In this document: piece after piece, positions 14,054 to 62,984 of the stretch | Layout of the letters: the number at the start of each line of letters is the position of its first letter | Position numbering within the stretch: position 1 is the first letter of the stretch | NCBI GenBank assembly: GCA_015179125.1 | Contig: WHVA01000377.1 | Coordinates: 50,620 to 114,619 of the forward strand | Direction of reading: 5' to 3' | Length of the DNA: 64,000 nucleotides | Origin: Gautieria morchelliformis | Lineage: Eukaryota; Basidiomycota; Agaricomycetes; Gomphales; Gomphaceae | Program-made: the position numbers and the translations under genes | The notes under the pieces: model-generated | What the model saw: the letters and a program-made list of their open reading frames with translations, nothing else | Databases searched by the model: none | Told to the model about the DNA's origin: nothing

Positions 14054-14056
14054 TCA

Positions 14057-15601: not shown

Positions 15602-15605
15602 ACCC

Positions 15606-26755: not shown

Positions 26756-27183
26756 TGTAAGGGCAACCCTGGCTGGTTGTGGAGATCACACTACCACACA
26801 ACTGACAAGGGGAAATCCAAAGAGAAAAGTCTAAGGACCCCCAATGTCAGCGAGCCCGTATTATACTACGCTGCGCAGCCAGGGACAACACTTGGCACCC
26901 GCCATCAACCCTGCATCTCCCTGACCACCCTGACCCTTGATCGACCCTTGATGCCACCTATTACGCGAGTCGCTTGATTTCCGACACTGTTCTGAGAGTG
27001 GAAGTCCGGAAATTGGAGTGGAATTGGCAAGGCGAACAGAACTGGTGGAAGTTCTCCCAGAAGCGGAATCATTTCCGAAAGCGGAGGCAGAGATGGAATC
27101 GGAACCGGAAGCAGAGTCGGAAATGGAGTCAGAACTGGGTGTTGTGTTGGAACTGGAAATGGAAAACAGGGTGTCCCCTGACA
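26756..27183 (-). repeat. Gypsy D 3' LTR
   Basis: 428 bases from TGTAAGGGCAACC to GGTGTCCCCTGACA, matching 32,357-32,845. On the minus strand it is preceded by the polypurine tract AGAGGGGGGTGA, which fixes it as the 3' LTR. Lacks 61 bases present in the other LTR. Confidence 0.9.
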
Positions 27184-27201
27184 TCACCCCCCTCTAGCGT
27201 G

Positions 27202-30900: not shown

Positions 30901-31026
30901 GCAGCAACAACATAGCGCTTTGGGAGGGTCTCTCCCAAGGGCGGATGCGGGATGGCTGGGGTGTCGGATTTGGTTTTTGTGTGACTTTATCCGGTGGGTC
31001 TGTAGAAGTGAGGGGAGTGGGGGCTT

Positions 31027-32356
31027 TTAATTCTCTACTTCAAGACAGGCAAACCGGTTATGTACAGGCAGCAGGGGCACACATCTCACCCGCTGCACGT
31101 CACAAAATACGACGCATCTTCCGCTTCTGGTGGACCATGTTCCGCATTTTCGGAAATTTCTTCCGCAGTGGGCACTCGCGAGCATAGTGGCCTGGTTGTC
31201 AGCATCGGAAGCAGGTGATAGTTCCGTGGCCTTTTCCACGCATGCGGTCAACATCCATCGGGGCAGGGCCACCCTTTGAGGGAGGGGGCTAGGGTTCCTA
31301 ATAGGAGCAGGCGGAGCAAGCGTCGGAAATATTTTCTGTGTGGGAATGAATGCACTTCCGGGTTTTGGCACAGGTGGAGTAGGACGAGCGGAACTGCGTG
31401 TCATGTTCCGGTTTGTCTCCACGAAGGACTCATTTGCTTCCCTGTTCCGGGACACCCTCTGCGCAGCTTGGTACCACCCTTCCGGGTCAACAAAATCCGG
31501 AGCTCCATCCCCAAGCAGCGCAACTTGGTTCTGGAGTGTTGGATCAAGTCCTTGTTGGAATTTGATGACGATCGTCTTGTTGTCGTCATACTCCGCAAGG
31601 TTGATGAGCTCCTGGAAGCGATCGATGTAGTCATCGACCAGATCCTTGGCCTGGTACCAGCTTGTCCCCTTGAGCGTCGTAAGGGCTGTGAGCTGCTCGT
31701 TTTTCAGGCAGAACTGGTCGGAAAATGTTTTCTCGAAGGCGTCCCAGTCCCGGAAGTAGTTCTCCTTGCCCTTTGCTTCATGTCGGATCACCTTGTTTGC
31801 AAAACAGGCTGTGCGGTCCGACTTGAAAAAGGACAATGCCCAGTGAATCCAAGCCTGGTTGTTCGGAAAGAGGTCTCCAACAATTGCGAAGTAGATGCTG
31901 CACATGTTGAAGAATGCGCGTCCCTTCTCCCGATCTCCATCAAAGTCCGCCGGAGTTGCGGGTTTGACCTTTGCTAACTTCGCGGAGACCCTCTCTTCCG
32001 CTACTTCCGCTTTTCTGAAATCCGGATCGTCCAGCATTTCATTTCCACCACTTTGTGGAATATCTAACTTAGCCAAAATTGCTTGTAAGGCTGTTTCAAT
32101 CGCGTCGGTCTTCATCCGGTTCCGTGTCAATTCCTCCTCCATATTCCGAAGACGATCATCCGGATCCATGTCGGAAGGAGAAATATGGGACGGGATTTCC
32201 GGGGTTGGGAGCTCAACGTAAGAAGAGGGGCTGTCGTACGCTGTGTGTGCGGAAGAGGTTGCGATTTCCGAGTCGCTGTCTCCGATTCCGAACGCACCTA
32301 TGGCGAATGCAGCGCGCAGTACGACCGCCGGTCCTCTAGGGGAGAGACTTTTCTGC
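31027..32356 (-). pseudogene. Gypsy D Gag
   Basis: The likely start is within about 32,150-32,200 (MDPDDRLRNMEEELTRNR, a coiled-coil start). The longer frame reaching into the LTR has no ATG. The capsid region has SIYFAIVGDLFPNNQAW, FEKTFSDQF and YIDRFQELI. After a frameshift near 31,275 the zinc knuckle reads CFRC, TGA, QPGHYAREC; the TGA is at 31,199-31,201 where Arg is expected. The protein would package element RNA. Confidence 0.85.
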
Positions 32357-32845
32357 TGTAAGGGCAACCCTGGCTGGTTGTGGAGATCACCCTACCACAC
32401 AACTGACAAGGGGAAATCCAAAGTATGTATAAATGAACAGAGTATACAAGAGAGGGGATTCTCATCTGACAAGGGGAAATCCAAAGAGAAAGGTCTAAGG
32501 ACCCCCAATGCCAGTGAGCCATATTATACTATGCTGCGCAGCCAGGGACAACACTTGGCACCTGCCATCAACCCTGCATCTCCCTGACCACCCTGACCCT
32601 TGATTGACCCTTGATGCCACCTATTACGCGAGTCGCTTGATTTCCGACACTGTTCCGAGAGTGGAAGTCGGAAATTGGAGTGGAACTGGCAAGGCGAACA
32701 GAACTGGTGGAAGTTCTCCCAGAAGCGGAATCATTTCCGAAAGCGGAGGCGGAGATGGAATCGGAACCGGAAGCGGAGTCGGAAATGGAGTTGGAACTGG
32801 GTGTGGTGTCGGAACTGGAAATGGAAAACAGGGTGTCCCCTGACA
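32357..32845 (-). repeat. Gypsy D 5' LTR, 61 bases longer than its partner
   Basis: 489 bases. The extra segment sits between two copies of CTGACAAGGGGAAATCCAAAG (about 32,400 and 32,466); the partner LTR has one copy. Otherwise the two LTRs differ at few positions. Confidence 0.88.
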
Positions 32846-36515: not shown

Positions 36516-36549
36516 CGAAAGAAGGTCGCGGTCATGCTGTTCCTGGATG

Positions 36550-42370: not shown

Positions 42371-43049
42371 TGTTACAACCGTTCATTTCCGACTTCCGAC
42401 CCTCAGTTCCGCAACACCTTCCGCCCCTATGATATTTCCGCAACACTTTCCGCCCCTCCGATATTTCCGACATTCCGCCCATTGTTCTATTCCCTTGTTC
42501 TTTCGACTCTATTACTCGGACCCACCGGACCCGTTTCATCGTTCATCAAAACCACATATCCGGTCACCCTTATAATTCGTTGTCAGATATGTTTTCCCAA
42601 CCCCTTGTTCTTTGCCATTGTTCTACCTTACCCTGAACCCCCCCTTGTAGTCCCATTGTTCCCAATTAGTTAGTTCCCACGCATTGTCTACTCGACTTCC
42701 ACTTCCCCCGGAATTTGCTTAGTACCATGTCATTACCTGTTGTCTCAGCTCTTTGTATAAAAGCCTGTCATGTATGTCTCTTATTCTGCAATCAGATAAT
42801 CACCTTCGATACTTGATTTCCTTCGCTCCATCTCCTGTTCTTAGCACAGCGAGTCTAGCAAGATCTCAGTCTCTCTCCGCCTTCCACCTCAGTTCCGACC
42901 CAAGTTCCAACCAACCTTTGGTTCAGTACTTTCCAACTTCCAACTCAGTTCCGAAATACTTAGGACGATAGTTCATCGGGGGCGCAACCTATAAGTTGAA
43001 GCCGCCGTCCTTTCCAGTTCCGACTTAGTGGAAATCTCGATACGTAACA
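42371..43049 (+). repeat. Gypsy A copy 1, 5' LTR
   Basis: 679 bases from TGTTACAACCG to CGATACGTAACA. Contains a TATA box (TATAAAA, 42,756-42,762) before TTCTGCAATCAGAT, which should be the promoter and start region for gag-pol. The partner LTR is 49,670-50,362. Confidence 0.92.
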
Positions 43050-43082
43050 GTATTATCTGATTCCCACCCGATAACTATCACT

Positions 43083-44530
43083 ATGCCTCCTCGTACCACA
43101 GCTACTTCAGCTCGAGCAGGAGCTGTCGAAGCTCTCTCTTATTTTGGCAGTCTCAGATCTGCAGCACCAAGGCACGCGGAACCCTCCGGCAGCTCTCGTG
43201 CCGACGATGAGCTCTCCGATGTTATTCTGCAACGATTCGAAGAAGTTCCCGACGCTAATCCCGACGACAATCCTGACTATGACGGGAATTCGATGAGTAG
43301 CAGCGGCGAACAAACAGCAGCGTCATTCCGACACCCAGCTCCACCACCACCACCTCCACCAGGACCACCTCCAGGCGGCCCTCATGGCAGCCCACCCGGC
43401 GGTCCCCCAGGCGGTCCTCCAGGCGGTCCTCCACCGCCAATCCACCTCAGATTCCCGCCAACCCAGTTCCGCCCACGCCAGTTCCGGATCTTGCACAAGC
43501 CATCGCCATGCTAGCCGGACAACTCCAACGCCCGGCCCAAGCACCACCACGCCCCAAGACAAAGGTCCGCGAACCAGATCAGTTCGACGGTTCTGACCCC
43601 AAGAAGCTCCAGCCGTTTCTGGTCCAGCTTCAACTCAATTTCCGTGATCGTCCCGACGCCTTTCCCGACGACGAATGGAAGGTCAATTATGCCCTTTCCT
43701 ATCTCCGAGGCACGGCTCTCGACTACTTCGAACCCGCCCTCATGGATCCATTCGCTCTCATCAACTGGGCCGACGATTACCACAACTTCGTTTCCGAACT
43801 CCACAGCAACTTCGGACCATTTGATATGGAAGCTGATGCGGAAAATGAACTCGATAAGCTTCGTATGAAAGACACTCATAAGATAGCTAAATATATCGTC
43901 ACGTTCCAGCAGCTCGCTCCTCGAGTCCAATGGGGAGAAGCCGCGCTTCGACGCCAGTTTTACATGGGCTTGCCATCCCGCATCAAGGATGAAATTGCCT
44001 GCGTCGGAAAACCCGCCACCCTTACCGACCTCCGCAACCTCGCCCAATCCATCAATTCGCGCTACTGGGAAAGACATCCGAGATCGCTCGCGAAACTTCC
44101 GCCCAGAGCAAGAATGACAAGTCTTCCGACAAGAAGTCTGATAAAGACAAGAAGGAGACCAATTCGGAAACACAACTCCGGAAACAACAACAACAACAAC
44201 AGTTCCGGACCAACTCCGGCAACCGGAACAACAACCCACCCCTCGCAACAACCAGGCCTCTGGTTCCAACACCAATGCCCGAAGAGCACTCCAGACCTTT
44301 CCGACAAACTTGGGAAGGACCGAAAACTAACCCCGTAGAACGCCAGCGTCCATGGACAACAACCTTTGCCTTTTCTGCGGCAAAGGCGGTCACGTCACTC
44401 GCGACTGCACTCGCGCTTCCGCCTCCGCTGCTAAGGCCAAGGCCGCGCAGCAAAGACGGAAGAGAAATCCGAAGCGGCTCCCGCTGCGGATTCAAAAAAA
44501 TAGTCAGCAGTCCTCCGGCCTCCGCACGAG
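43083..44530 (+). pseudogene. Gypsy A copy 1 Gag
   Basis: Starts MPPRTTATSARAGAVEALSY at 43,083 and has a polyproline/glycine block. A frameshift near 43,440 is followed by the capsid (FDGSDPKKLQPF, YALSYLRGTALDYFEP, FRDRPDAF) to about 44,050. A second frameshift follows, and the CCHC knuckle CLFCGKGGHVTRDC lies near 44,365. A Gln/Asn-rich linker precedes the knuckle. The product is inferred to be the RNA-packaging shell. Confidence 0.85.
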
Positions 44531-44639
44531 CTGAGGGCTGTGTTGACCCCATTCGTGCGACAAACGAGGTTAAACTCAATGCATCCGCTCTTTCGTCCTC
44601 CGACTCCCTCTCTGTTCCGCTCACTTCCGACACCATTTC

Positions 44640-46957
44640 CGCACCCCCGTTACAGCACTGGTCGACTCCGGTTCGACTCATTGTTTCCTCGATTCCGACT
44701 TTGTTTTGAAACATAAACTTCCGACCCGCAACATTCCGACATTCCGCTCCGCCTTTTCGACGGGTCTTCCAACACGGGAATTTCCCAAGTTGTGGATCTG
44801 TCTATTCGTTTCGCTACTGGGGACAACCATGAAGTTACGTTTTACGTTACTCCACTAGATGCTAGCTGTTCCGTTGTACTAGGACACAATTGGCTCACCC
44901 GATATAATCCGTCGATTAACTGGGCATTGGGTCAAATACAGTTCCGTACCCCGGATCAACTTCCGTCTATTCCGACGTCGTCTGCAAAGATGGCTCAGGC
45001 CTCTTCTGCAACTCCGCTCGTGGATTCAGTTCCGCACTCCGGTCCGCTTTAGCACCTCCGCCCTCGAAGCCCTCGAATTGCGCTCGTTCCGCCACCGCTT
45101 TCCGCGTATTGCAACGGCAAGAGATACGACCGTTTTCCAGCTTCACCTCTCCGATTCGGCTTCAGTCAAGGCTCGTTCCGCCTCGACTTCCGCTCCGGTC
45201 GACATGAGCTCAGTTCCGGAAGAATATCGTGACTTCCCGGACGTGTTCAATAAGGCCAAAGCCGATAAACCTGCTGAACATCGACCTTACGATTGAAGAT
45301 AGATTTGGAAGAAGGAGCATCTCCGCCCCTTGGACCGATCTACTCCCTTTCGCAAAGTGAACTCCTAACTCTCCGCGAGTTCGTCGATGAACATCTCAAC
45401 ATGGGCTTTATCCGCCCTTCGCTGTCTCCGCACGGCGCTCCGGTCCTTTCGTCAAGAAGAAGGATGGATCTCTCCGCCTCTGCGTCGATTTCCGCGGACT
45501 CAATGCCCTCACTAAAAGGACAAATATCCGCTTCCGCGCATTTCCGACTTACTCGACACCCCCGCAGGGCGAAGATCTACACCAAAATTGACCTCCGCAC
45601 GCTTATCACCTTGTCCGCATCCGGGAAGGTGACGAGTGGAAAACCACCTTCCGCACCCGCTACGGTGCTTTGAGTGGACTGTCATGCCTTTTGGTCTAAC
45701 CAATGCTCCCGCCGCTTTTCAGCGATTCATGAACGACGTATTTTCCGACCTCCTCGACGTATGCGTCCTAGTCTACATTGACGACATCCTCATCTATTCC
45801 GACACACCGGAAAAACATCGGGAACATGTCCGCGAAGTACTCCGCCGTCTACGCAAACACCATCTCTATGCAAAAGCAGAGAAATGCGAATGGCATCGCG
45901 ACACGGTCGAATACCTCGGCTACATCCTCTCTCCAACAGGTCTTACCATGGCAGAGGACAAGGTCAAGGCAATTCAAGAATGGCCGGAACCCCGACGTGT
46001 TAAGGATGTGCAGTCTTCCTTGGCTTCGCCAACTTTTACCGGCGTTTCATTTATAATTTTTCCGACATTACTGTTCCGCTCACGCGTCTCACCAGGAAGG
46101 GTGCCCCATGGAATTTCACACCGGAATGCCGTTCCGCATTTGAAGCTCTCAAATCGGCCTTCACCACGGCTCCCATACTCGGTTTCTGGATTCCTGATGC
46201 CCAACTTGTACTCGAAACCGACGCTTCTGACTACGCGCTAGCCGCCATTCTTTCCATCATTTCACCCGACGACGGAGAAATTCATCCGATCGCCTTTCAT
46301 TCCCGCACCTTTTCCGCCCCGGAACTCAACTACGACGTCCACGATAAGGAACTACTTGCGATTTTCGAAGCCTTCAAAATCTGGAGACATTACCTCGAAG
46401 GTCCAACTTATCCGATCGACGTTGTAACGGATCATAAGAACCTTGAGTATTTTGCAACCACTAAGATTTTGACTCGCCGTCAAGTCCGCTGGTCTGAATA
46501 CCTCTCACAGTTCAACATGGTGATCCGTTTCCGCCCCGGAAAGCTCGGAGCAAAACCCGACGCGCTCACTAGACGTTGGGACGTCTACCCAAAAGAGGGA
46601 AGTAGCGACTATGCCAGCGTTAATCCGCACAATTTCCGCCCAGTATTCTCCACTGAGCAACTGGCATCGTCCCTGCGTGCCACAGCATTGCAGTTTCCGC
46701 TACTCCGCGCCTCAATTATTATGGACACCGAGTCTCTCCATTCCGACATCCGTTCCGCACTCCGTTCCGACCCCACCTCCGCAGCCCACCTCGATGACCC
46801 CACCAGTCCTGGATGGTCCCTCGATTCCGACGGATTTCTCCGGTACAAGTCCCGGATTTACGTTCCGGACACCAACGATCTACGACTTCGCGTGCTCAGC
46901 AAAGCCACGATCATCCGCTCTCAGGACACCAAGGCCAGAACAAAACCCTCGACATAA
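44640..46957 (+). pseudogene. Gypsy A copy 1 protease, RT and RNase H
   Basis: The protease site LVDSGSTHCFLDSDF is at about 44,657-44,700. The frame then moves to VDLSIRFATGDNHEV and VVLGHNWLTRYNPSINW. RT begins near 45,290 with [14 protein letters not shown]. Several indels between 45,430 and 45,660 destroy the A motif region. RT then reads [17 protein letters not shown] and [13 protein letters not shown]. RNase H motifs ([26 protein letters not shown]) lie near 46,210-46,520. Not translatable as one protein. Confidence 0.85.
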
Positions 46958-48192
46958 TCCGACGTACCTATACTTGGCCTCTCCTCCGCACGATGGTCCA
47001 AGACTACTGCAAGTCATGCACCACCTGTATGCGAGCCAAGCCTCAACGTCACAAACCCTATGGCCTCCTGAAGCAACTTCCGATCCCGGAACAACCGTGG
47101 AATTCGATATCCATGGATTTCATTGAGAAACTTCCTAAGTCATCCGGCTATGATACCATTCTAGTGATCGTTGACCGCCTCACAAAGCAGTCCATCTTTA
47201 TTCCGACCTATGACACCATCACTTCCGCCCTGCTCGCACAGCTCTTTGTGCTCCACGTCTTTTCCAAGCACGGAATACCTTCCCATGTCACTTCCGACCG
47301 TGGATCCGAATTCGTGTCATCCTTTTTCCGCACCCTCGGAAAGGCTCTCGACATGAAGCTCCACTTCACTTCCGGATATCATCCCGAAGGAGACGGACAA
47401 ACGGAACGTACTAATCAGACCCTTGAGCAGTATCTCCGCGTCTATTGCAACTACCAACATAGCAATTGGTCCGACCTTCTTCCGCTCGCGGAATTTGCCT
47501 ACAACAACGCGCCTTCCGCTACCACCGGAATTTCACCCTTTTATGCCAACAAGGGCTACCACCCGAATCTCGCCATCCACCCTGAACGCGACCTCGCCTC
47601 TGCAAGAGCCCGAGACTTCGTTGTGGAACTTGACGACCTTCACCAGCACCTCCGAGAGAACATTACAGCTGCCCAGAAGAGATACCAAACTTCCGCCGAT
47701 CGGAAACGCCTCCCGCAACCGGCATTCGAGATAGGCGACAAAGCCTTTGTCAAAGCTGAAAACTTCCGCACCACTCGCCCCTCGAAGAAGCTCTCTGAGA
47801 AATACCTCGGTCCTTACGAGATCATCGCTAAGGCCGGCAGTCGTTCTTTCACCCTCAGACTTCCTGACAATATGCGCGCAGTACATCCGGTATTCCATGT
47901 CTCTATGCTTGAGCCAGCAGTTCCGAATACAATTCCGAATCGAGAACAACCTCCGCCTCCGCCAGTCGTCATCGACGGAGAACCGGAATATGAGATTTCG
48001 GAAATTCTCAACTCCAAGCTCGACAGAAGATACCGCTGCCAACTCCAGTACCTAGTCAAGTGGGCAGGCTATGAAAACACTGACGAAGAGACTTCGTGGA
48101 TTTCCGCCACGGAACTTGACCACGCCTCTGACCTCGTCTCTGACTTTCACAAGTCATATCCTGATAAGCCTGGCCCCGTTTCCGCGCCCTAG
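46813..48192 (+). CDS. Gypsy A copy 1 integrase with chromodomain
   Basis: 459 codons without interruption. Zinc-finger end CKSCTTCMRAK; core SMDFIEKLPKSSGYD, TSDRGSEFVSS and GDGQTERTNQTLEQYLR (D,D,E); GPY module YLGPYEIIAKAGSRSF. The chromodomain at about 47,980-48,130 has YEISEILNSKLD, QYLVKWAGYENTDEETSW. In an active element this is the C-terminal part of Pol; here the upstream part is broken, so it is probably not expressed. It is nearly identical to the copy 2 protein where both can be read. Confidence 0.85.
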   Translation: MVPRFRRISPVQVPDLRSGHQRSTTSRAQQSHDHPLSGHQGQNKTLDIIRRTYTWPLLRTMVQDYCKSCTTCMRAKPQRHKPYGLLKQLPIPEQPWNSISMDFIEKLPKSSGYDTILVIVDRLTKQSIFIPTYDTITSALLAQLFVLHVFSKHGIPSHVTSDRGSEFVSSFFRTLGKALDMKLHFTSGYHPEGDGQTERTNQTLEQYLRVYCNYQHSNWSDLLPLAEFAYNNAPSATTGISPFYANKGYHPNLAIHPERDLASARARDFVVELDDLHQHLRENITAAQKRYQTSADRKRLPQPAFEIGDKAFVKAENFRTTRPSKKLSEKYLGPYEIIAKAGSRSFTLRLPDNMRAVHPVFHVSMLEPAVPNTIPNREQPPPPPVVIDGEPEYEISEILNSKLDRRYRCQLQYLVKWAGYENTDEETSWISATELDHASDLVSDFHKSYPDKPGPVSAP

Positions 48193-48315
48193 TCAATTCC
48201 GACCCCACTTCCGATACCCCCATTTCTTACGGTTCTTAAGTCACACACATTTCCGACTAATTTTCCATTATGATTTCCGACACTTCAAGAAACTATGTTA
48301 CAAGTTATTCGACCC

Positions 48316-49547
48316 CTACTCCTCCCTCATCGTCTCCGCCTCTTCCTTCTCCGCTTCCGCACCCTCTTCCGCATGCCCCATCGGCACACTCACCAACTCT
48401 GTCTCCACACTCGTATCCACCACCTGACTCGGACCCGCTTCCACACCATCCTCCTCCTGCATCCGCCACTCCATTCGTTCCCGGAGCATATTGTTCCGCC
48501 ACTGGAACTCCCGCTTGATCTGCTCCACAACCGTCGACAAAACCGTCATCTGGTTCTGGAAGCTCAACAGCTGTTGCTGTTGAACCGCGGACATCTCCTC
48601 GAGCGTATTCCGAATCCCGCGCTGGGATCTCCGGATACCCCTCAGACACTCTGCAATGTCGAGCAGAGGCGACATGTCAGCCTTCCCGGTCGCCGGAACC
48701 CTTTCCGCCGTCTTTTTCCCGCTCGACCTTGGTTTCGACTTAGGGGTTTCTGGCCCCTCGGTCTCGACTCTCCGCCTTTTCCGCTCCACCCTCGCGGAAC
48801 AGCCGTCCACGACGCACCGCCTCTTCTTGTCGCGGCACCGTTCACAGGCGGTTTCCCGCGGATTTTCTGACCAGACGCATTCTAGTCCTTTTACCTCGCA
48901 GGTGTCACAGGGCGCCTTTTCTTCTTCCCCGTCCCTTGTCTTCCGTTTCCGGGTCGCGGGATTCTCCGGCCCCAACTCCCGGAGGTCAACAATGCGGGCC
49001 ATCTTGTTCTTCCTGGCCTGTTGAAATTCGTCCGCCCTCCTTTTCCGATCCGCCACAAGGTTCACAACAGGAACTACTTCCTGTTGTTTTCCCTTCCCCT
49101 CAGGAGACGGCGTGTTTTCCGCCGTGTCTTCCGACTCCGGTTCGGAATCGGATTCGACGATTATTTTCTACCAAGTTTTTTTCAGTCAGTCTCGGGATGA
49201 GGCTCAGAACCTTTCCGACTCACCCGGGATTGTTCCGTTTTCTCCGCCACGGCCTTGTTTTCCGCAGCCTCTTGGGCCGCATCCCGTTTCCGCTGTTCTT
49301 CGCGGACGCGCGATTCCTCCTCGCGACGTTTGCGGTCACGCTCCTCCTTCTCTTTCCGCTCCTGTTCCAGACGCTCCTGTTCCTCGCGCTCTTTCTCTTT
49401 GTGCTCCTCCTCCAGACGCTCTTTCTCCTTCCGCGCCGCTTCCTCGGCCTCGCGTTTTTCGGCCAACTCCTTTTGCGCGAGCATGTCAGCAAAGTGTGCT
49501 TTCATCTCAGCACTGGTCATTTTGGAGAAGTCGACTGGAGTGCTCAT
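48316..49547 (-). pseudogene. antisense Zn-cluster / coiled-coil gene in Gypsy A copy 1, frameshifted
   Basis: Minus strand, opposite to gag-pol. The first part, from ATG 49,547, is a Glu/Lys/Arg coiled coil (LEEEHKEKEREEQERLEQER) ending at a stop at 49,182. The second part, in another frame from about 49,070, holds the cysteine cluster C-X2-C-X6-C-X10-C-X2-C-X6-C and a helical C-terminus, ending MREE at 48,316. Small deletions between 49,066 and 49,181 separate the halves; copy 2 has the joined form. The stop lies about 120 bases from the pol stop, so the genes converge without overlap. Confidence 0.85.
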
Positions 49548-49669
49548 GATGGACTAAACAGAAGACGCGTCTTGTTTCCCGCCTATATTACAAACTCCGA
49601 CGCGTTTGTTCACAGGTCACGTGATTCCGACTTGTGGTCTCGCGGGGCTCGACCTTAGAAGGGAGATAC
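49548..49669 (-). promoter_or_regulatory. putative promoter of the antisense gene, overlapping polypurine tract
   Basis: About 120 bases between the 3' LTR and the antisense ATG. Read on the minus strand it contains CACGTGAC, an E-box core, near 49,615-49,623, then GTAATATAGGCGGGAAACAA. The matching stretch in copy 2 (54,693-54,812) keeps the same order but has CATGTGAC. The plus-strand polypurine tract is at its LTR end. Confidence 0.5.
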
Positions 49670-50362
49670 TGTTACGACCGTTCATTTCCGATTTCCGACC
49701 CTCAGTTCCGCCATACATTCCGCCTCTCCAATAGTTCCGCCACACGTTCCGCCCCTCCGACATTTCCGACATTTCGCCCCTTGTACATTTCCCTTGTTCT
49801 TTCGACTCTATTACTCGGACCCACCGGACCCACCTCGCCATCCATCAAAACCATATATCCGGTCACCCTTGTAGTTCGTTGTCAGATATGATTTCCCGAC
49901 CCCTTGTTCTTTGCCATTGTTCTACCTTACCCTGAACCCCCCTTGTAGTCCCATTGTTCCCAATTAGTTAGTTCCCACACATTGTACTCGACTTCCGCTT
50001 CCTCCGGAATTTGCTTAGTACAACACCATTACTTGTTGCTCTGCGCTTTGTATAAAAACCCCCTCATGTATGTCTGTTATTCTGCAATCAGATAATCACC
50101 TTCGATACTTGATTTCCTTCGCTCCATCTCCTGTTCTTAGCACAGCGAGTCTAGCAAGATCTCAGTCTCTCTCTCAGCCTTCCGTCTTCCGCCTTCCGCC
50201 TCAGTTCCGACTCAAGTCCCGACCAAACCTCTGGTCCAGTACTTTCCGACTTCCGGCTCATTTCCGAAATACCTAGGACGATAGTTCATTGGGGGCGCAA
50301 CCTATAAGTTGAAGCCGCTGTCCTTTCCAGTTCCGACTTAGTGGAAATCTCGATACGTAACA
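49670..50362 (+). repeat. Gypsy A copy 1, 3' LTR
   Basis: 693 bases, TGTTACGACCG to GATACGTAACA, with the same TATA box (50,051-50,057) as the 5' LTR. Immediately followed by a minisatellite. Confidence 0.92.
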
Positions 50363-53930: not shown

Positions 53931-54000
53931 TGTTATTTCGTTATTTCATTGCCTTGCCAAAATGGGAAGGACCAGGAGGAGTCTGCGCATTAACTCGAGC

Positions 54001-54692
54001 TGTTACGTATCGAGATTTCTGCTAAGTCGGAACTGGAAAGGACAGCGGCTTCAACTTGTAGGTTGCGCCCCCGATGAACTATCGTCCTAAGTATTTCGGA
54101 ACTGAGTTGGAAGTCGGAAAGTACTGAACCAAAGGTTTGGTCGGAACTTGAGTCGGAACTGAGGCAGAAGGTGGAAGACGGAAGGCGGAGAGAGACTGAG
54201 ATCTTGCTAGACTTGCTGTGCTAAGAACAGGAGATGGAGCGAAGGAAATCTAGTATCAAAGGCGATTATCTGATTGCAGAATAAGAGACATACATGACAG
54301 GCTTTTATACAAAGAGCTGGGGCAACAGGTAATGATATGGTACTAAGCAAAATTCCGAGGGAAGCGGAAGTCGAGTAAACAAAGCGTGGGAACTAACTAT
54401 TGGGAACAATGGGACTACAAGGGGGTTCAGGGTAAGGTAGAACAATGGCAAAGAACAAGGGGTCAGGAAAACATATCTGACAACGAAACACAAGGAGGGT
54501 CGGACATATGGTCTTGATGAACGGTAAGGTGGGTCCGGTGGGTCCGAGTAATAGAGTCGAAAGAACAAGGGAAATGTACAAGGGGCGGAATGTCGGAAAT
54601 ATCAGAGGGGCGGAATGTGTTGTGGAAATATCGTAGGGGCGGAAGGTATTGCGGAACTGAGGGTCGGAAGTCGGAAATGAACGATCGTAACA
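54001..54692 (-). repeat. Gypsy A copy 2, 3' LTR
   Basis: 692 bases, reverse orientation, ending CGATCGTAACA at 54,692, followed by the polypurine tract (minus strand AGAAGGGAGATAC). TATA box on the minus strand at about 54,303-54,309. Confidence 0.92.
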
Positions 54693-54812
54693 GTATCTCC
54701 CTTCTAAGGTCGAGCCCCGCGAGACCACAAGTCGGATCATGTGACCTGTGAACAAACACGTCGGAGTTCGAAAGATAGGCGGGAAACAAACACGTCTTCA
54801 TCCTTATCCATT

Positions 54813-56045
54813 ATGAGCTCCCAACCTGACCTCAGTAAAATGTCCAGCGCTGAAATGGAGAAGTATTTCGACGACCTTCTTGCGCAGAAGAAGCAGGCTG
54901 AAAAACAGGCGGCCGAGGAAGCTGCGCGGAAAGAGAAGGAGCGACTGGAGGAGGAGCGCAAGGAGAAAGAGCGCAAGGACCTGGAGCGTCGGGAACAGGA
55001 GCGGAAGGAGAAGGAGGAGCATGACCGTAAACGTCACGAGGAGGAGTTGCGTGTCCGCGAAGAACAGCGGAAACAGGACGCGGCCAAAAAAGCTGCGGAA
55101 GACAAGGCCGCGGCGGAGAAGGCGGGAAAATCCCGGGTGAGTCGGAAACGTCATGTGCTTAGTTCTGATGCTGACAGAAGAACTTGGCAGAAAATAATTG
55201 TCGAATCCGATTCCGAACCGGAATCGGAAGACACCACGGAAAGCACGCCGTCCCCTGAGGGGAAGGGGAAACAACAGGAAGTAGTTCCTGTGCTGAACCT
55301 TGTGGCGGATCGGAAAAGGAGGGCGGACGGGTTTCAGCAGGCCAGGAAGAACAAAATGGCCCGCATCATCGATCTTCGGGAGTTGGGACTGGAGAATCCC
55401 GCGACCCGGAAACGGAAGACGAGGGACGGGGAAGAAGAAAAGGCTCCCTGTGACACATGTGAGGTGAAGGGGCACGATTGCGTGTGGTCGGAAAATCCGC
55501 GGGAAACCGCCTGCGAACGGTGCCGCGACAAGAAGAGGCGGTGCGTCGTGGACGGCTGTTCCGCGAGGGTGGAGCAGAAAAGGCGGAAGGTCGAGACCGA
55601 GGGGCCAGAAACCCCAAAGTCAAAACCAGGGCCGAGCAGGAAGAAGACGGCAGAAGGGGTTCCGGCGACCGGGAAGTCGAACATGTTGCCTTTGCTTGAC
55701 ATCGCTGAGTCACTGAGGGGTATCCGGAGATCCCAGCGCGGGATCCGGAACACACTCGAGGAGATGTCCGCAGTTCAACAGCAACACCTGTTGACCTTCC
55801 AAAACCAGATGACAGTTTTGTTGGCGGTTGTGGAGCAAATCAAGTGGGAGTTCCAGTGGCGGAAAAACATGCTCCAGGAACGAATGGAGTGGAGGATGCA
55901 GGAGGAGAATGGGGCGGAAGCGGGTCCGAGCCAGGTGGTGGATACGAGGGTGGAGACAGAGTTGGCGAATGTGCCGATAGGGCATGTGGGAGAGGGTGCG
56001 GAAGCGGAGAATGAGGAAGAGGTGGAAATGATGAGGGAGGAGTAG
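54813..56045 (+). CDS. antisense Zn(II)2Cys6-like / coiled-coil protein encoded by Gypsy A
   Basis: 410 codons, uninterrupted, on the strand opposite gag-pol. I use ATG 54,813 (MSSQPDLSKMSSAEME), which matches the ATG of copy 1; the open frame upstream has no ATG. Residues 15-115 are a Glu/Lys/Arg-rich coiled coil. An acidic Ser-rich stretch (about 130-155) and a basic RKRKTRD segment follow. Residues about 213-244 give C-X2-C-X6-C-X10-C-X2-C-X6-C with RCRDKKRRC, the spacing of fungal Zn(II)2Cys6 DNA-binding clusters, here internal rather than N-terminal. Residues 294-366 are helical (LEEMSAVQQQ) and the C-terminus is acidic. It could be a DNA-binding or chromatin-targeting factor of the element; function is inference. 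Confidence 0.82.
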   Translation: MSSQPDLSKMSSAEMEKYFDDLLAQKKQAEKQAAEEAARKEKERLEEERKEKERKDLERREQERKEKEEHDRKRHEEELRVREEQRKQDAAKKAAEDKAAAEKAGKSRVSRKRHVLSSDADRRTWQKIIVESDSEPESEDTTESTPSPEGKGKQQEVVPVLNLVADRKRRADGFQQARKNKMARIIDLRELGLENPATRKRKTRDGEEEKAPCDTCEVKGHDCVWSENPRETACERCRDKKRRCVVDGCSARVEQKRRKVETEGPETPKSKPGPSRKKTAEGVPATGKSNMLPLLDIAESLRGIRRSQRGIRNTLEEMSAVQQQHLLTFQNQMTVLLAVVEQIKWEFQWRKNMLQERMEWRMQEENGAEAGPSQVVDTRVETELANVPIGHVGEGAEAENEEEVEMMREE

Positions 56046-56175
56046 GGTGTCAGGGTGACTTGTAAAATTTTTCTTGAAGTGTCGGAAATTAGCGTAACGG
56101 AAATTTAATCGGATTTTAACAATGACTTGAGAACTGTAAGAAAGCAATGGGTGTCGGAAATGAGGTCGGAAGTGA

Positions 56176-57420
56176 CTAGGGCGCAGAAATGGGGCCAGGC
56201 TTATCAGGATATGACTTGTGGAAATCAGCGACGAGGTCAGAGGCGTGGTCTAGTTCCGTGGCGGAAATCCACGAGGTCTCTTCGTCGGTGTTTTCATAGC
56301 CTGCCCACTTGACTAGGTACTGGAGTTGGCAGCGGTATCGTCTGTCGAGCTTGGAGTTGAGAATTTCTGAGATCTCATATTCCGGTTCTCCGTCGATGAT
56401 CATTGGCGGAGGCGGAGGTTGTTCTCTATTTGGAGTTGTGTTCGGAACTGCTGGCTCAAGCATAGAGACATGGAATACCAGATGTACTGCGTGCATATTG
56501 TCAGGAAGTCTGAGAGTGAAAGAACGACTGCCGGCCTTAGCGATGATCTCGTAAGGGCCAAGGTATTTTTCAGAGAGCTTCTTCGAGGGGTGAGTAGTGC
56601 GGAAGGTTTCCGCTTTGACAAAGACTTTGTCGCCAATCTCGAATGCCGGTTGCGGAAGGCGTTTCTGATCGGCGGAAGTTTGAAATTATTTCTGGGCAGC
56701 GGTAATGTTCTCTCGGAGGTGCTGGTGAAGGTCGTCAAGTTCCACAACGAAATCTCGGGCTCTTGCAGAGGCGAGGTCGCGTTCTGGGTGGATGGCGAGA
56801 TTCGGGTGGTAGCCCTTGTTGGCGTAAAAGGGTGAAATTCCGGTGGTGGCGGAAGGCGCGTTGTTGTAGGCAAATTCCGTGAGTGGAAGAAGGTCGGACC
56901 AATTGCTGTGTTGGTAGTTGCAATAGACGCGGAGATACTGCTCAAGGGTCTGATTAGTACGTTCCGTTTGTCTGTCTCCTTCGGGATGATAACCGGAAGT
57001 GAAGTGGAGCTTCATGTCGAGAGCCTTGCCGAGTGTGCGGAAAAAGGATGACATGAATTCGGAACCACGGTCAGACGCGACATGGGAAGGGATTCCGTGC
57101 TTGGAAAATACGTGGAGCACAAAGAGCTGTGCAAGCTGGGCGGAAGTGATGGTGTCGTATGTCGGAATAAAGATGGACTGCTTTGTAAGGCGCTCAACGA
57201 TTACTAGAATGGTATCATAGCCAGATGACTTAGGAAGTTTCTCAATGAAATCCATGGATATCGAATTCCACGGTTGTTCCGGGATCGGAAGTTGCTTCAG
57301 GAGGCCATAGGGTTTGTGACGTTGAGGCTTGGCTCGCATACAGGTGGTGCATGACTTGCAGTAGTCTTGGACCATCGTGCGGAGGAGAGGCCAAGTATAG
57401 GTACGTCGGATTATGTCGAG
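56176..57420 (-). pseudogene. Gypsy A copy 2 integrase and chromodomain, frameshifted
   Basis: The core is open at 56,686-57,375 (CKSCTTCMRAK, SMDFIEKLPKS, ASDRGSEFMSS, GDRQTERTNQTLEQYLR). A frameshift near 56,690 and another near 56,500 separate it from the end part at 56,176-56,496 (VFHVSMLEPAV, YEISEILNSKLD, LVKWAGYENTDEETSW). GDGQTE has become GDRQTE. The stop lies 130 bases from the antisense gene's stop, so the two converge. Confidence 0.87.
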
Positions 57421-59800
57421 GGTTTTGTTCTGGCCTTGGTGTCCGAGAGCGGATGATCATGGCTTTGCTGGAGCACGCGAAGTCGTAGATCATTGGTATC
57501 CAGAACATAAATCCGGGACTTGTACCGGAGAAATCCGTCGGAATCAAGGGACCATCCAGGACTGGTGGGGTCATCGAGGTGGGCTGCGGAGATGGGGTCG
57601 GAACGAAGTGCGGAACGGATGTCAGAATGGGAGACTCGGTGTCCATAATGATTGAGGTGCGGAGTAGCGGAAACTGCAATGCTGTGGCATGCAGGGACGA
57701 TGCCAGTTGCTCAGTAGAGAATACTGGGCGGAAATTGTGCGGATTAACGCTGGCATAGTCGCTACTTCCCTCTTTTGGGTAGACGTCCCAACGTCTAGTG
57801 AGTGCGTCGGGTTTTGCTCCGAGCTTTCCGGGGCGGAAACGGATCACCATGTTGAACTGTGAGAGATATTCAGACCAGCGGACTTGACGGCAAGTCAAAA
57901 TCTTAGTAGTTGCAAAATACTCAAGGTTTTTATGATCCGTTACAACATTGATCAGATAAGTTGGACCTTGAGGTGTGTCTCCAGATTTTGAAGGCTTCGA
58001 AAATCGCAAGTAGTTCCTTATCGTGGACGTCGCAGTTGAGTTCCGGGGCAGAAAAGGTGCGGGAATGAAAGGCGATCGGATGAATTTCTCCGTGTCGGGG
58101 GAAATGATGGAAAGAATGGCGGCTAGCGCGTAGTCGGAAGCGTCGGTTTCAAGTATGAGTTGGGCATCAGGAATCCAGAAACCGAGTATAGGAGCCGTGG
58201 TGAAGGCCGATTTGAGAGCTTCAAATGCAGAACGGCATTCCGGAGTGAAATTCCATGGGGCACCCTTCCTGGTGAGACGCGTGAGCGGAACAGTAATGTC
58301 GGAAAAGTTATAAATGAAACGCCGGTAAAAGTTGGCGAAGCCAAGGAAAGACTGTACATCCTTAACACGTCGGGGTTCCGGCCATTCTTGAATTGCCTTG
58401 ACTTTGTCCTCTGCCATGGTAAGACCTGTTGGAGAGAGGATGTAGCCGAGGTATTCGACCATGTCGCGATGCCATTCGCATTTCTCTGCTTTTGTGTAGA
58501 GATGGTGTTTGCGGAGACGGCGGAGTACTTCGCGGACATGTTCCGATGTTTTTCCGGTGTGTCGGAATAGATGAGGATGTCGTCAATGTAGACTAGGACG
58601 CATACGTCAAGAAGGTCGGAAAAAATCGTTCATGAATCGCTGAAAAGCGGCGGGAGCATTGGTTAGACCGAAAGGCATGACAACCCACTCAAAAGCACCA
58701 TAACGGGTGCGGAAAGTGGTTTTCCACTCGTCACCTTCCCGGATGCGGACAAGGTGATAAGCATGCCAGAGGTCAATTTTGGTGTAGATCTTCACCCTGC
58801 GGGGAGTGTCGAGTAAGTCGGAAATGCACGGAAGCGGATATTTGTCCTTCTTAGTGAGGGCGTTGAGTCCACGGAAATCGACGCAGAGGCGGAGAGATCC
58901 ATCCTTCTTCTTGACGAAAAGGACCGGAGCGCCGTGCGGAGACAGCGAAGGGAGGATGAAGCCCATGTTGAGATGTTCATCGACGAACTTGTGGAGAGTT
59001 AGGAGTTCACTTTGTGAAAGGGAGTAGATCGGTCCAAGGGGCGGAGATGCTCCTTCTTCCAATCTATCTTCAGATCGTAAGGTCGATGTTCAGCTGGTTT
59101 ATCGGCTTTGGCCTTGTTGAACAAGTCCGGGAAGTCACGATATTCTTCCGGAACTGAGCTCATGTGACCGGAGCGGAAGTCGAGGCGGAACAAGCCTTGA
59201 CTGAAGCCGAATCGGAAAGGTGAAGCTGGAAAACGGTCGTATCATCTTGCCGTTGCAATACGCGGAAAGCGGTGGCAGAAACGAGCGCAATTCGAGGAGC
59301 TTCGAGGGACAGAGGTGCTAAAGCGGGACCGGAGTGAGGAACTGAGTCCACAAGCGGAGTTGCGGAAGAGGCCTGAGCCATCTTTGCGGATGACGTCGGA
59401 ATAGACGGAAGTTGATCCGGGGTACGGAACTGTATTTGACCCAATGCCCAGTTAATCGACGGATTATATCGGGTGAGCCAATTGTGTCCTAGTACAACGG
59501 AACAGCTAGCATCTAGCGGAGTAATGTAAAACGTAACTTCATGGTTGTCCCCAGTAGCAAAACGAATAGACAGATCCACAACTTGGGAAATTCCCGTGTT
59601 GGAAGATCGTCAAAAGGCGGAGTGGAATAGTCGGAATGTTGCGGGTCGGAAGTTTATGTTTCAAAACAAAGTCGGAATCGAGGAAACAATGAGTCGATCC
59701 TGAGTCGACCAATGCTGTGAACGGGGGTGCGGAAATGGTGTCTGAAGTGAGCGGAACAGAGAGGGAGTCGGAGGACGAAAGAGCGGATGCGTTGAGTTTA
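57421..59800 (-). pseudogene. Gypsy A copy 2 protease, RT and RNase H
   Basis: From right to left: protease (LVDSGSTHCFLDSD near 59,690-59,735, then VVLGHNWLTRYNPSINW), then RT at 58,607-59,062 ([50 protein letters not shown]). A frameshift near 58,610 precedes the YIDD part. The stretch 57,242-58,462 continues with [13 protein letters not shown] and RNase H ([14 protein letters not shown]). RT is better preserved here than in copy 1, but still broken. Confidence 0.85.
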
Positions 59801-59867
59801 ACCTCGTTTGTCGCACGAATGGGGTCAACACAGCCCTCAGCTCGTGTGGAGGCTGGAGGACTGCTGA

Positions 59868-61287
59868 CTATTTTTTTGAATCCACAGCGGGAGCCGCTTC
59901 GGATTTCTCTTCCATCTTTGCTGCGCGGCCCTTGGCCTTAGCAGCGGAGGTGGAAGCGCGAGTGCAGTCGTGAGCGACGTGACCGCCTTTGCCACAGAAA
60001 AGGCAAAGGTTGTTGTCCATGCGACGCTGGCGTTCTACAGGGGTTAGTTGTCCGTCCTTCCCAAGTTTGTCGGAAAGGTCCGGAGTGCTCTTTCGGGCGT
60101 TGGTGTTGGAACCAGAGGCCTGGTTGTTGTGAGGGGTGTTGTTGTTGTTCCGGTTGCCGGAGTTGGATCCGGAACTGTTGTTGCTGTTGTTGTTTCTGGA
60201 GTTGTTGTTTCCGGAATTAGTCTTCTTCTTGTCTTTATCAGACTTCTTGTCAGAAGACTTGTCGTTCTTGCTCTGGGCGGAAGTTTCGCGAGCAATCTCG
60301 GAGTGTCTTTCCCAGTAGCACGAATCGATGGATTGGGCGGGGTTGCGGAGGTCGGTAAGGGTGGCGGGTTTTCCGACGCGGGCAATTTCATCCTTGATGC
60401 GGGATGGCAAGCCCATGTAAAACTGGCGTCGGAGTGTGGCTTCCCCCGCATTGGACTCGAGGAGCGAGCTGCTGAAACGTGACGATATATTTAGCTATCT
60501 TATGAATGTCTTTCATACGAAGCTTATCAAGTTCATTTTCCGCATTGGCTTCCATGTCAAATGGTCCGAAGTTGCTGCGGAGTTCGGAAACGAAGTTGTG
60601 GTAATCGTCGGCCCAGTCGACGAGAGTGAACGGGTCCATGAGGGTGGGTTCGAAGTAGTCGAGAGCCATGCCTCGGAGATAGGAAAGGGCGTAATTGACC
60701 TTTCGTTCGTCGTCGGGAAAGGCGTCGGGATGATCACGGAAATTGAGTTGAAGCTGGACCAGAAATGGATGGAGCTTTTTGGGGTCGGAACCGTCAAACT
60801 GATCTGGTTCGCGGACCTTTGTCTTGGGGCATGGCGGTGCTTGGGCCGGGCATTGAAGTTGTCTGGCTAGCATGGCAATGGCTTGTGCAAGATCCGGAAC
60901 TGGCGCGGGCGGAACTGGGTTGGCGAGAATCTGAGGTGGGATTGGCAGTGGAGGACCGCCTGGAGGACCGCCGGGTGGGCCGCCATGAGGGCTGCCTGGA
61001 GGTGGTCCTGGTGGAGGTGGTGGTGGTGGAGCTGGGCGTCGGAATGACGCTGCTGTTTGTTCGCCGCTGTTACTCGTTGAATTCCCGTCATAATCGGGAT
61101 TGTCGTCGGGATTAGCGTCGGGAACTTCTTCGAAACGTTGCGGAAAAGCATCGGAGAGCTCATCGTCGGCACAAGAGCTGCCGGAGGGTTCCGCGTGCCT
61201 TGGTGCTGCGGATCTAAGACTGCCAAAATAAGAGAGAGCTTCGACAGCTCCTGCTCGAGCTGAAGTAGCTGTGGTACGAGGAGGCAT
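59868..61287 (-). pseudogene. Gypsy A copy 2 Gag, one frameshift
   Basis: Starts MPPRTTATSARAGAVEALSY at 61,287; the capsid runs to about 60,440, where a frameshift occurs inside LRRQFYMGLPSR. It continues in another frame at 60,416-59,868 through the Asn-rich linker and the CCHC knuckle CLFCGKGGHVAHDC, ending PAVDSKK. Unlike copy 1, the proline/glycine block is in frame. Confidence 0.88.
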
Positions 61288-61327
61288 AGTGATAGTTATC
61301 GGGTGGGAATCAGATAATACTGTTTAC

Positions 61328-61612
61328 TGTTACGTATCGAGATTTCCGCTAAGTCGGAACTGGAAAGGACAGCGGCTTCAACTTGTAGGTTGCGCCCCCG
61401 ATGAACTATCGTCCTAAGTATTTCGGAACTGAGTCGGAAGTCAGAAAGTACTGAACCAAAGGTTTGGTCCGAACTTGAGTCGGAACTGAGGCAGAAGGCG
61501 GAAGACGGAAGGCGGAGAGAGACTGAGATCTTGCTAGACTCGCTGTGCTAAGAACAGGAGATGGAGCGAAGGAAATCAAGTATCGAAGGCGATTCTCTGA
61601 TTGCAGAATAAG
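61328..61612 (-). repeat. Gypsy A copy 2, 5' LTR, inner part
   Basis: Reverse-orientation LTR from TGTTACGTATCG to GCAGAATAAG. Interrupted at ATAAG (61,608-61,612); the remainder resumes at 62,823. Confidence 0.9.
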
Positions 61613-62822
61613 ATGTAGAGGACAGGAATCATAGGCAGTAGGTATGGACTTGCTGCTCAAAAGACGACTAGAAATCAATTCACTCTCTCAGTGAATTTAG
61701 TTGTCACTATGTTACGTATCGCGATTTCCACTAAGTCGGAACTGGAAAGGACGGCGGCTTCAACTTATAGGTTGCGCCCCCGATGAACTATCGTCCTAAG
61801 TATTTCGGAACTGAGTCGGAAGTCGGAAAGTACTGAGCCAAAGGTTTGGTCGGAACTTGAGTCGGAACTGAGGTGGAAGGCGGAAGACGGAAGGCTGAGA
61901 GAGACTGAGATCTTGCTGGACTCGCTGTGCTAAGAACAGGAGATGGAGCGAAGGAAATCAAGTATCGAAGGTGATTATCTGATTGCAGAATAACAGACAT
62001 ACATGAGGGGGTTTTTATACAAAGCGCAGAGCAACAAGTAATGGTGTTGTACTAAGCAAATTCCGGAGGAAGCGGAAGTCGAGTACAATGTGTGGGAACT
62101 AACTAATTGGGAACAATGGGACTACAAGGGGGTTCAGGGTAAGGTAGAACAATGGCAAAGAACAAGGGGTCGGGAAAAGATATCTGACAACGAACTACAA
62201 GGGTGACCGGATATATGGTTTTGATGGATGGCGAGGTGGGTCCGGTGGGTCCGAGTAATAGAGTCGAAAGAACAAGGGAAATGTACAAGGGGCGGAATGT
62301 CGGAAATGTCGGAGGGGCGGAACGTGTGACGGAACTATCGGAGGGGCGGAAGGAGTGGCGGAACTGAGGGTCGGAAGTCGGAAATGAACGGTCGTAACAC
62401 ACTATAAATATATTATACACTACCTAGAAATCAATTCACTACAGGATTTCTAGGTCAACAAATTGAAAGGAAACAAGACTAATTTACTTGCCTCTCTCAG
62501 TGAATTTAGTTGTCACTGAGAGAGGAGGGGAATGTGTCTCATGCGCATGTACTACTAGCCGGCGCTTTAGCGCCCGTGATACCACCTTGTGCCGTGCTAA
62601 GCGCCCGCAGAACGTACCACGGTGGTGAACAGCCGCAGCTCAAAAAGGAAACTTGTCCACAAGCACCCACAGTAGAAATACAGCTTCGAAAAATCAAAGG
62701 AAAATTTGACAAATCATAGAATGAATGTCAGCATGGTTTCAAGTCAAAATCAAAAGAAATACGAATGGTGGAATCTATTTGGCTTGATTTTGGTGCAGGA
62801 GCATAAATGCACCCAACATAAG
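61613..62822. mobile_element. unclassified insertion X in an LTR, itself holding a solo LTR
   Basis: The LTR reading breaks after ATAAG (61,608-61,612) and resumes after a second ATAAG (62,818-62,822), a 5-bp target duplication. Without the nested solo LTR the insert is about 510 bases. It contains CTAGAAATCAATTCACT twice and CTCTCTCAGTGAATTTAGTTG twice. No coding region, no poly(A) and no obvious terminal inverted repeat were seen. Class unknown. Confidence 0.75.
61710..62399 (-). repeat. solo LTR, Gypsy family A, with perfect target duplication
   Basis: 690 bases, reverse orientation, TGTTACGTATCG to CGGTCGTAACA. CACTA flanks both sides (61,705-61,709 and 62,400-62,404). It lies inside insertion X, so it is the youngest layer here. 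Confidence 0.95.
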
Positions 62823-62984
62823 AGACATACATGACAGGCTTTTATACAAAGAGCTGGGGCAACAGGTAATGATATGGTACTAAGCAAAATTCTGGGGGAA
62901 GCGGAAGTCGAGTAAACAATGCGTGGGAACTAACTATTGGGAACAATGGGACTACAAGGGGGGTTCAGGGTAAGGTAGAACAAT
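62823..62984 (-). repeat. Gypsy A copy 2, 5' LTR, outer part, truncated
   Basis: Continues AGACATACATGACAGGCTTTT and the TATA region of the interrupted LTR. Breaks after GTAGAACAAT where the YR element begins. Confidence 0.9.

Follow-up and report, generated by a model that had tools for sequence, protein, structure and literature searches.

A probable spliced antisense gene, predicted to encode a zinc-cluster protein, in a CGGAA-tiled Ty3/Gypsy chromovirus family of Gautieria morchelliformis

Introduction

Genes lying antisense between pol and the 3' LTR have been described in plant elements, where their function is not known (PMC7264820). The gene described here, found in a 64,000-nucleotide stretch of the basidiomycete Gautieria morchelliformis (the whole of which is called the window), resembles them in its place, its orientation and its retention in most copies, as is the case in some plant families, and also in the predicted or suspected DNA binding of the product, which in plants concerns TRP28 (PMC7264820, PMC11963269). 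It differs from them in that TRP28 is replaced here by a Zn2Cys6-like cluster, in a fungal chromovirus, with a conserved predicted intron and a short DNA word spread over the whole element; the main texts of PMC7264820 and PMC11963269 do not mention the word "intron". About half of the Retand clusters are described as carrying tandem repeats (PMC11963269).

Another antisense gene of this position is HBZ of HTLV-1, whose transcripts start in the 3' LTR (PMC1459196). Like HBZ, the fungal gene is antisense to gag-pol, spliced (by prediction) and adjacent to the 3' LTR, and its product is a putative regulator (PMC1459196). HBZ is a bZIP protein, whereas a zinc cluster is found here, and no homology is claimed; moreover, the fungal ATG lies outside the LTR (120 bases beyond the 3' LTR in element 2, one of the two window copies), and a single predicted intron of 51-58 nt sits inside the coding frame.

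The third system is that of the VANDALs, which are plant DNA transposons, whereas the element described here is an LTR retrotransposon. In Arabidopsis, the sites of the VANDAL-encoded protein VANC21 form dense arrays of a short, element-specific motif in one orientation, and VANC6 acts also on an unrelated element that carries its motif (PMC5735166). The likeness to VANC lies in a protein that is element-encoded and divergent among relatives, together with a dense short motif (PMC5735166, PMC10398659), which in the focal family, not in a second family called D, stands mostly in one orientation and which is common to an unrelated element (PMC5735166). The VANC motif lies largely outside coding sequence and has spread through tandem repeats, whereas the motif found here, a candidate binding site, occupies coding DNA too (PMC5735166).

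The explanation that we consider best, with a probability of roughly 0.5, is that the fungal protein binds CGGAA sites and marks the chromatin of its own family, most likely against silencing.

The element and its antisense gene

Two elements of the family lie in the window in opposite orientations and with the same gene order (Table 1). In element 1, Retrotrans_gag, RT_RNaseH, Integrase_H2C2, rve and Chromo were found above the Pfam cut-offs, and the only match to RVT_1 came from a broken part of element 2 and stayed below the cut-off. Gag, RNaseH and an H2C2-rve integrase followed by a chromodomain, between flanking LTRs, identify a Ty3/Gypsy chromovirus by Pfam and LTR comparison.

Table 1. 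Coordinates of the described features in the window
Feature	Position	Strand	Remarks
Element 2, including the LTR inserted in its 5' LTR	54001..62400	-	
3' LTR of element 2	54001..54692	-	TGTTAC...GTAACA; LTR comparison
Antisense-gene frame, ATG to TAG	54813-56045	+	410 sense codons open
Exon 1, element 2	54813..55136	+	108 codons; open from ATG; aligned in 31 copies
Predicted phase-0 spliceosomal intron, element 2	55137..55190	+	GTGAGT...CTGAC...CAG; 54 nt
Exon 2, element 2	55191..56045	+	284 codons + TAG; charged linker, Cys cluster, basic segment, long coiled coil
Zn2Cys6-like cluster, CX2CX6CX10CX2CX6C, and seventh Cys	55449..55559	+	
Integrase and chromodomain, element 2	56176..57456	-	one frame with one stop; adjoins the antisense gene
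Remaining pol and gag, element 2	57242..61323	-	several frames
Element 1	42371..50362	+	LTRs 42371-43050 and 49670-50362
Exon 1, element 1	49224..49547	-	
Predicted intron, element 1	49168..49223	-	56 nt
Exon 2, element 1	48316..49167	-	283 codons + TAG
Element D, second chromovirus family	26856..32845	-	87 CGGAA/TTCCG sites, 14.5 per kb

An earlier, sequence-only reading of this DNA had described, in element 2, an uninterrupted frame of 410 codons that lies opposite to gag-pol and between pol and the 3' LTR; a counterpart in element 1 had been noted too. The placement of the frame is borne out by the LTR and the minus-strand gag-pol around it, and the counterpart, with its own ATG, was found at 49547..48316. 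The frame is indeed open from ATG to TAG, but the probable protein is spliced: the frame looked uninterrupted because the intron of this copy has 54 nt and is free of stops, whereas the 56-nt intron of element 1 makes the frame there look broken unless it is spliced. The spliced products would have 108 + 284 = 392 amino acids in element 2 and 108 + 283 in element 1.

Several other features of the window were recorded. The gag-pol strand of both elements has less G than C, with a GC skew of about -0.2 to -0.4 (42371-50362 and 54001-62400). The 5' LTR of element 2 is split into two pieces of its own (61327-61613 and 62818-62962), between which lies a full LTR of the same family (61710-62399) with CACTA on each side as a 5-bp duplication, and which looks like a solo LTR inserted there. 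Gypsy-type frames without the CGGAA tiling described below abut element D (26532-26834) and element 2 (53288-54025), the latter frame being similar, by eye, to 23355-24794; D and element 2 may be insertions into copies of such an untiled Gypsy type. The stretches 33868-39216 and 11379-15613 are a LINE and a Copia element; in the LINE, the endonuclease and RNase H scored above the Pfam cut-off and RT and zf-RVT below it, the Copia element has long open frames, and the tested frames of both are untiled. At 7075-8981, two overlapping frames (7075-7824 and 7770-8981) read like what we take to be a caspase-like (metacaspase) host gene; a Pfam search with the frame 7770-8981 gave no match.

A conserved intron on the antisense strand

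When 31 copies were aligned with no motif required, all 31 showed an invariant GTGAGT, a branch region resembling CTGAC/CTCAC and an invariant AG, with a diverging middle. The length of the intron is 51-58 nt in 73 of 74 distinct copies and 82 nt in one. It is not a multiple of three in 31 of the 74, and among the 48 copies left intact by splicing (intact meaning an exon 1 of 95-125 codons and an exon 2 of at least 250) 26 would lose their frame if the intron were retained, by which a single 410-codon exon is ruled out. The pattern used in the length survey itself requires GTGAGT, and the unbiased evidence is the motif-free alignment; its 31 copies had been chosen mostly by continuous match, which favours in-frame introns. 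Only two records were missed by the pattern, L067, which has the same donor and another 3' end, and L071, from which the gene is absent. The 82-nt intron belongs to a single genomic copy recorded twice (L048 and L073), in which the 5' part of the intron is duplicated internally, with a second GTGAGT, and in which the frame of exon 2 is broken too.

An intron on the antisense strand could survive retrotransposition, since the genomic RNA is the other strand. Its conservation is the best sequence evidence, of an indirect kind, for transcription of the antisense strand, and it suggests that the gene is transcribed and spliced in the cell. A real, spliced antisense gene is considered almost certain.

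Recurrence and protein-level selection

A search of the genome gave at least 106 matches to the gene, with 102 of 1051 candidates scored and a few copies split into two pieces. Among the first 30 loci, an integrase was found on the opposite strand in 29 (not at L002) and an LTR upstream of the gene in 29 (not at L011). A sample free of selection for the gene was provided by 30 elements picked by the last 110 amino acids of the integrase-chromodomain frame alone: the antisense gene lies between integrase and 3' LTR in 29 of them, L071 being the sole exception, and 21 of the 30 records are intact after splicing. The gene thus recurs in other copies of the element, a point on which the sequence-only reading had asked for a check. 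Eight of these 30 loci are copies already in the set, and distinct copies were recounted for the totals of 74 and 48; 48 of the 74 are still open after splicing. Relatives of the protein were not found in viral contigs or in contigs of prokaryote genomes, scans that may omit the window's own kin, and sequence searches of the PDB gave chance-level matches only. At the level of titles and abstracts, the literature yielded no fungal gene of such kind and no such tiling, which is weak evidence of absence.

The dN/dS among copies, proposed as a check by the earlier reading, is far below 1. The median pairwise NG86 value among the 48 distinct intact copies is 0.172 (10-90% range 0.127-0.253), and a value of 1 or more was reached in none of the 1086 pairs with dS > 0.05, out of 1128. 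Exon 1 has a median of 0.165 (34 intact copies); of the stretches tested, constraint is strongest in the zinc cluster (0.11) and weakest in the C-terminal tail (0.36). The other reading frames, compared in 300 sampled pairs, gave 1.52, 1.66, 1.22 and 1.99, and the mirror frame, in which third positions are opposed, gave 0.33 and is open in one of 55 records, a frame-comparison set that includes duplicates. The differences by codon position amount to 0.150/0.114/0.321, also in a set with duplicate records. A chance open frame is ruled out by the frame-specific dN/dS and by the recurrence, and constraint imposed by a gene on the gag-pol strand by the three frames there, which are open in 0, 1 and 0 of the 55 records.

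These values bear on the idea that the antisense unit acts as RNA, through antisense or double-stranded RNA control, with the open frame as a by-product. An antisense transcript would indeed overlap the sense RNA, and this possibility has been raised for plant elements (PMC7264820), but a dN/dS of 0.17 as compared with 1.22-1.99 in four of the five other frames, the codon-position pattern, the near-invariant Cys and the number of distinct copies that stay open after splicing make RNA action alone very improbable.

A Zn2Cys6-like cluster

Exon 1 is, by eye, charged and coiled-coil-like, and the cluster lies in exon 2. The C-X2-C-X6-C-X10-C-X2-C-X6-C spacing noticed earlier is exact, and a further Cys follows it (X4-C). 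Zn2Cys6 domains have a spacing range of CX2CX6CX5-12CX2CX6-8C, into which the six Cys fall in 46-48 of the 48 distinct intact copies; the seven Cys, in order, are kept in 48, 48, 47, 48, 48, 46 and 48 of the 48. The Pfam family Zn_clus (PF00172) was matched at E <= 0.1 in 33 of 38 members (best 1.7e-4), with scores below the gathering cut-off of 21 bits in every member for which bits were shown (16.2 for the window copy, 17.8 for copy 1 and 13.5-17.8 for four others).

The model of exon 2 comprises a helix at 34-64, the Cys cluster and a 78-residue helix at 165-242, mostly with pLDDT > 90; its overall confidence is low (mean pLDDT 66, pTM 0.24), and Foldseek returned a single match at chance level, a Zn2Cys6 chain of Hap1 (E 6.7). 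A model of the 72-amino-acid cluster (pLDDT 60) has two short helices, each beginning at a CX2C. It was matched to 22 Foldseek chains from nine proteins, namely Ppr1, Pho7, Put3, Leu3, Gal4, CBF3, Lac9, Hap1 and AlcR, all of them Zn2Cys6 and none individually significant (best E 0.42, probability up to 0.72); the matches include 1cld and 6gys chain B, which we take to be Zn2Cys6 domains.

One half of the cluster, C-X2-C-R-D-K-K-R-R-C, presumably resembles the first half of Gal4, and its second Lys, invariant in 33 of 33 rows, would sit at the spacing of Gal4 Lys18. In Gal4, the basic half C-X2-C-R-x-K-K-x-R-C comes first, whereas it comes second in the element protein. Lys18 of Gal4 contacts guanines of CGG (PMC5559640), and Zn2Cys6 proteins read CGG/CCG triplets (PMC5771398, PMC5559640). 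With the fungal Zn2Cys6 factors (Gal4, Ppr1, Put3, Leu3, Hap1, Pho7, CBF3/Cep3), the element protein has in common the Cys pattern, the two short helices of the model, a coiled coil downstream and a CGG-type DNA word nearby; it differs in its seventh conserved Cys and in staying below the Pfam cut-off. For the earlier assignment to the binuclear zinc clusters, the Cys pattern and a weakly predicted fold thus speak in favour and the Pfam scores against. Judged by sequence and model, the product is very probably a DNA binder of the Zn2Cys6 type.

CGGAA tiling from LTR to LTR

CGGAA/TTCCG occurs 0-3 times per 500 bases outside the three Gypsy elements of the window that carry it and 3-12 times inside them, and the edges of this tiling coincide with the LTR ends at 500-base resolution. 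Element 1 has 136 sites (17.0 per kb) and element 2 has 137 (16.3 per kb). When the genomic loci were pooled, overlapping ones included, the elements had 17.9 sites per kb (4234 in 236,020 bases) and their flanks 1.4 per kb (35 in 24,728 bases), so that the motif is, as for VANC, dense in the element and rare elsewhere. Groups of three closely spaced TCGGAA number 4431 in the genome, and the reversed pattern was counted 132 times; three odd-looking cluster sites that were inspected all belong to the focal family or to family D. Both this tiling and the intron had been missed by the sequence-only reading, which taken as a whole is partly supported.

In shuffles of synonymous codons, CGGAA ranked first among up to 512 5-mers in seven of eight coding pieces, three of which are versions of one gene, the antisense gene. 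The observed and shuffled counts are 24 and 6.7 in the integrase, 15 and 4.5 in RNaseH, 14 and 4.2 in gag, and 20, 25 and 22 against 9.8, 10.8 and 9.6 in the three diverged versions of the antisense gene. Among further pieces of element 2, the end of gag ranks CGGAA first and a short RNaseH/RT piece ranks it 20th. It is also the commonest 5-mer in 942 non-coding bases (19 against 2.5 expected, with a maximum of 7 in 200 shuffles), and the LTR has seven GTCGGAA sites in 700 bases. An origin from codon usage or base skew is ruled out by the synonymous-codon and dinucleotide shuffles and by eight other frames, which rank CGGAA 25-456; these are one host-like frame and seven from Copia, LINE and other Gypsy elements. 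A general transposon mark is ruled out likewise, the tested Copia, LINE and other Gypsy frames of the window being free of it.

On the gag-pol strand, TTCCG and CGGAA stand at 108:28 in element 1 and 111:26 in element 2, an orientation bias that is due in part to the base skew of the element. Pairs of TTCCG in one orientation, 12 bases apart, were counted 12 times in element 1, where 1.5 are expected, and nine times in element 2, with the two LTRs counted twice. Some copies have short TCGGAA arrays, for instance at C14:211171-211224 in L048.

The sites are not fixed in place. Ten versions of the antisense gene have 12-26 sites each at shifting positions, and the versions L001 and L063 share 10 of 32 (the set includes duplicates). 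In the changed codons of this gene, the creation of CGGAA falls in the top 5% of shuffles in nine of 12 directed comparisons, which are not independent, and not in the other three. In the integrase, no extra conservation of CGGAA sites was found: synonymous diversity is 0.133 inside and 0.139 outside them, and the synonymous differences of the integrase may mostly postdate insertion. A corresponding value for 10 sites of the antisense gene (0.107 vs 0.330) is biased, since sites kept by most copies had been chosen, and was not used.

The antisense protein is the simplest candidate reader of these sites because its class recognises CGG/CCG, CGG being the usual half-site of Zn2Cys6 proteins, and because the element that encodes it is itself full of CGGAA. 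On the sequence, we judge the chances that it is the reader to be slightly better than even. The earlier reading had supposed that the element encodes its own regulator, for example of LTR transcription, silencing or integration targeting; since coding DNA is tiled too, the protein would seem to act on chromatin along the entire element and not just at the LTR, and integration targeting found no support.

A regulator comparable to HBZ, targeting only LTR transcription so as to repress or time gag-pol, with the sites inside genes being incidental, would agree with the density of GTCGGAA in the LTR and with a spliced antisense gene that adjoins the 3' LTR and encodes a coiled coil and basic segments, as in HTLV-1 (PMC1459196). 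Nevertheless, the excess of CGGAA in gag and pol arises by synonymous codon choice, which action on the LTR alone leaves unexplained, and such a role is regarded as unlikely.

A second family with the same word

Family D is abundant, with at least 150 matches in the genome (150 of 3617 candidates scored) that are 92-100% identical. CGGAA is again enriched in its gag (24 against 8.2, rank 1) and integrase (13 against 6.1, rank 4), yet the antisense gene is missing: the LTR follows directly after the integrase in the window copy and in three of three further copies. A strict tie between tiling and carriers of the gene is thereby ruled out. The integrases of D and of the focal family are identical at 173 of 423 aligned positions, and of the 13 sites in the D integrase only three share their position with one of the 26 in the focal integrase. 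With 52 CGGAA and 35 TTCCG on the gag-pol strand, D is not strongly biased in orientation as the focal elements are. A is rare before CGGAA in both families (11 of 136 and 6 of 87 sites), and in view of this shared avoidance both may be served by a single reader, whether from the host or encoded by an element.

Family D lends weight to a host factor, such as a host Zn2Cys6 or chromatin protein, as the reader of CGGAA, with the antisense protein binding something else. D is tiled without the gene, and its few shared integrase sites indicate that the tiling arose or was kept separately in two families. Against this, eight frames of the window, one host-like and seven from other transposable elements, are untiled, the element encodes a protein of a CGG-reading class whose cluster is its most conserved part, and the common flank preference would also agree with one reader that the focal family provides in trans. 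A host reader is accordingly thought rather unlikely.

The protein could instead tether integration complexes to CGGAA-rich chromatin, that is, to older copies. The family LTR nested in the 5' LTR of element 2, with its 5-bp duplication, and the chromodomain of the integrase would fit such targeting, but this is the one case of nesting in tiled DNA, and it would be unusual for a particle component to be expressed from the antisense strand. The odds are further lowered by D and element 2, which abut untiled Gypsy fragments (frames ending at 26834 and 54025), and targeting of this kind appears improbable.

A divergent cassette

Among 31 distinct copies (465 pairs), from which L030 was left out because its integrase end did not align, the median dS is 0.95 in the antisense gene and 0.16 in the integrase. 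The two are uncorrelated (Pearson r 0.02, Spearman 0.06), and in 14 of the 22 pairs with an integrase dS below 0.05 that of the antisense gene exceeds 0.5. The mean pairwise identity in 12 copies (66 pairs) is 0.92-0.97 in the integrase, 0.75-0.89 in the antisense gene, 0.83-0.88 in the outer LTR and 0.92-0.93 in the inner LTR. The contrast in dS, with no correlation, points to a history of the gene that is decoupled from that of pol, most simply through template switching between co-packaged RNAs together with old, maintained variants of the gene.

Conclusion

In the explanation preferred here, binding of CGGAA and marking of the family's chromatin, a chromodomain Ty3/Gypsy family would bear, opposite to gag-pol, a host-type, intron-bearing gene for a zinc-cluster protein that dimerises or multimerises through its coiled coils. 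The protein would bind CGGAA (BCGGAA) sites from LTR to LTR and so mark or coat the chromatin of the family; once bound, it may protect the copies against silencing, as VANDAL elements are protected by VANC proteins, and family D, which shares the sites, would benefit in trans. A role like that of VANC is favoured, with less confidence than the binding itself, and anti-silencing as the purpose, being drawn from analogy, is a tentative proposal.

Several findings count against this explanation. Family D is tiled without the gene, which would allow for a reader of host origin; D does not show the orientation bias either, and the integrase sites are not conserved beyond their surroundings. Three of the 12 directed comparisons show no excess of CGGAA, and one piece ranks it 20th. 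The Pfam scores below cut-off, the low model confidence and the lack of a significant Foldseek match weigh on the protein side, and the VANC motifs are mainly non-coding, whereas the coding regions of the focal elements are tiled.

A fuller picture, one of self-recognition, is put forward as doubtful but worth stating. The five-base word would be spelled out in the genes through the choice among synonymous codons and would stand in the non-coding parts of the element as well; the spliced antisense protein would read it across the whole element and keep the chromatin open, D would exploit the word without having the gene, and the gene would be swapped among copies as an old and diverse cassette.

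In comparison with the plant antisense genes, the new aspects are a recognisable domain of a DNA-binding type, a candidate binding site and a conserved predicted intron that would mark antisense expression. Should CGGAA prove to be read by the protein, the case would show how a retrotransposon can label its own DNA along its full length, coding sequence included, and how the label can be shared by an unrelated family. If true, this family would represent a retrotransposon counterpart of the VANC systems of plants.
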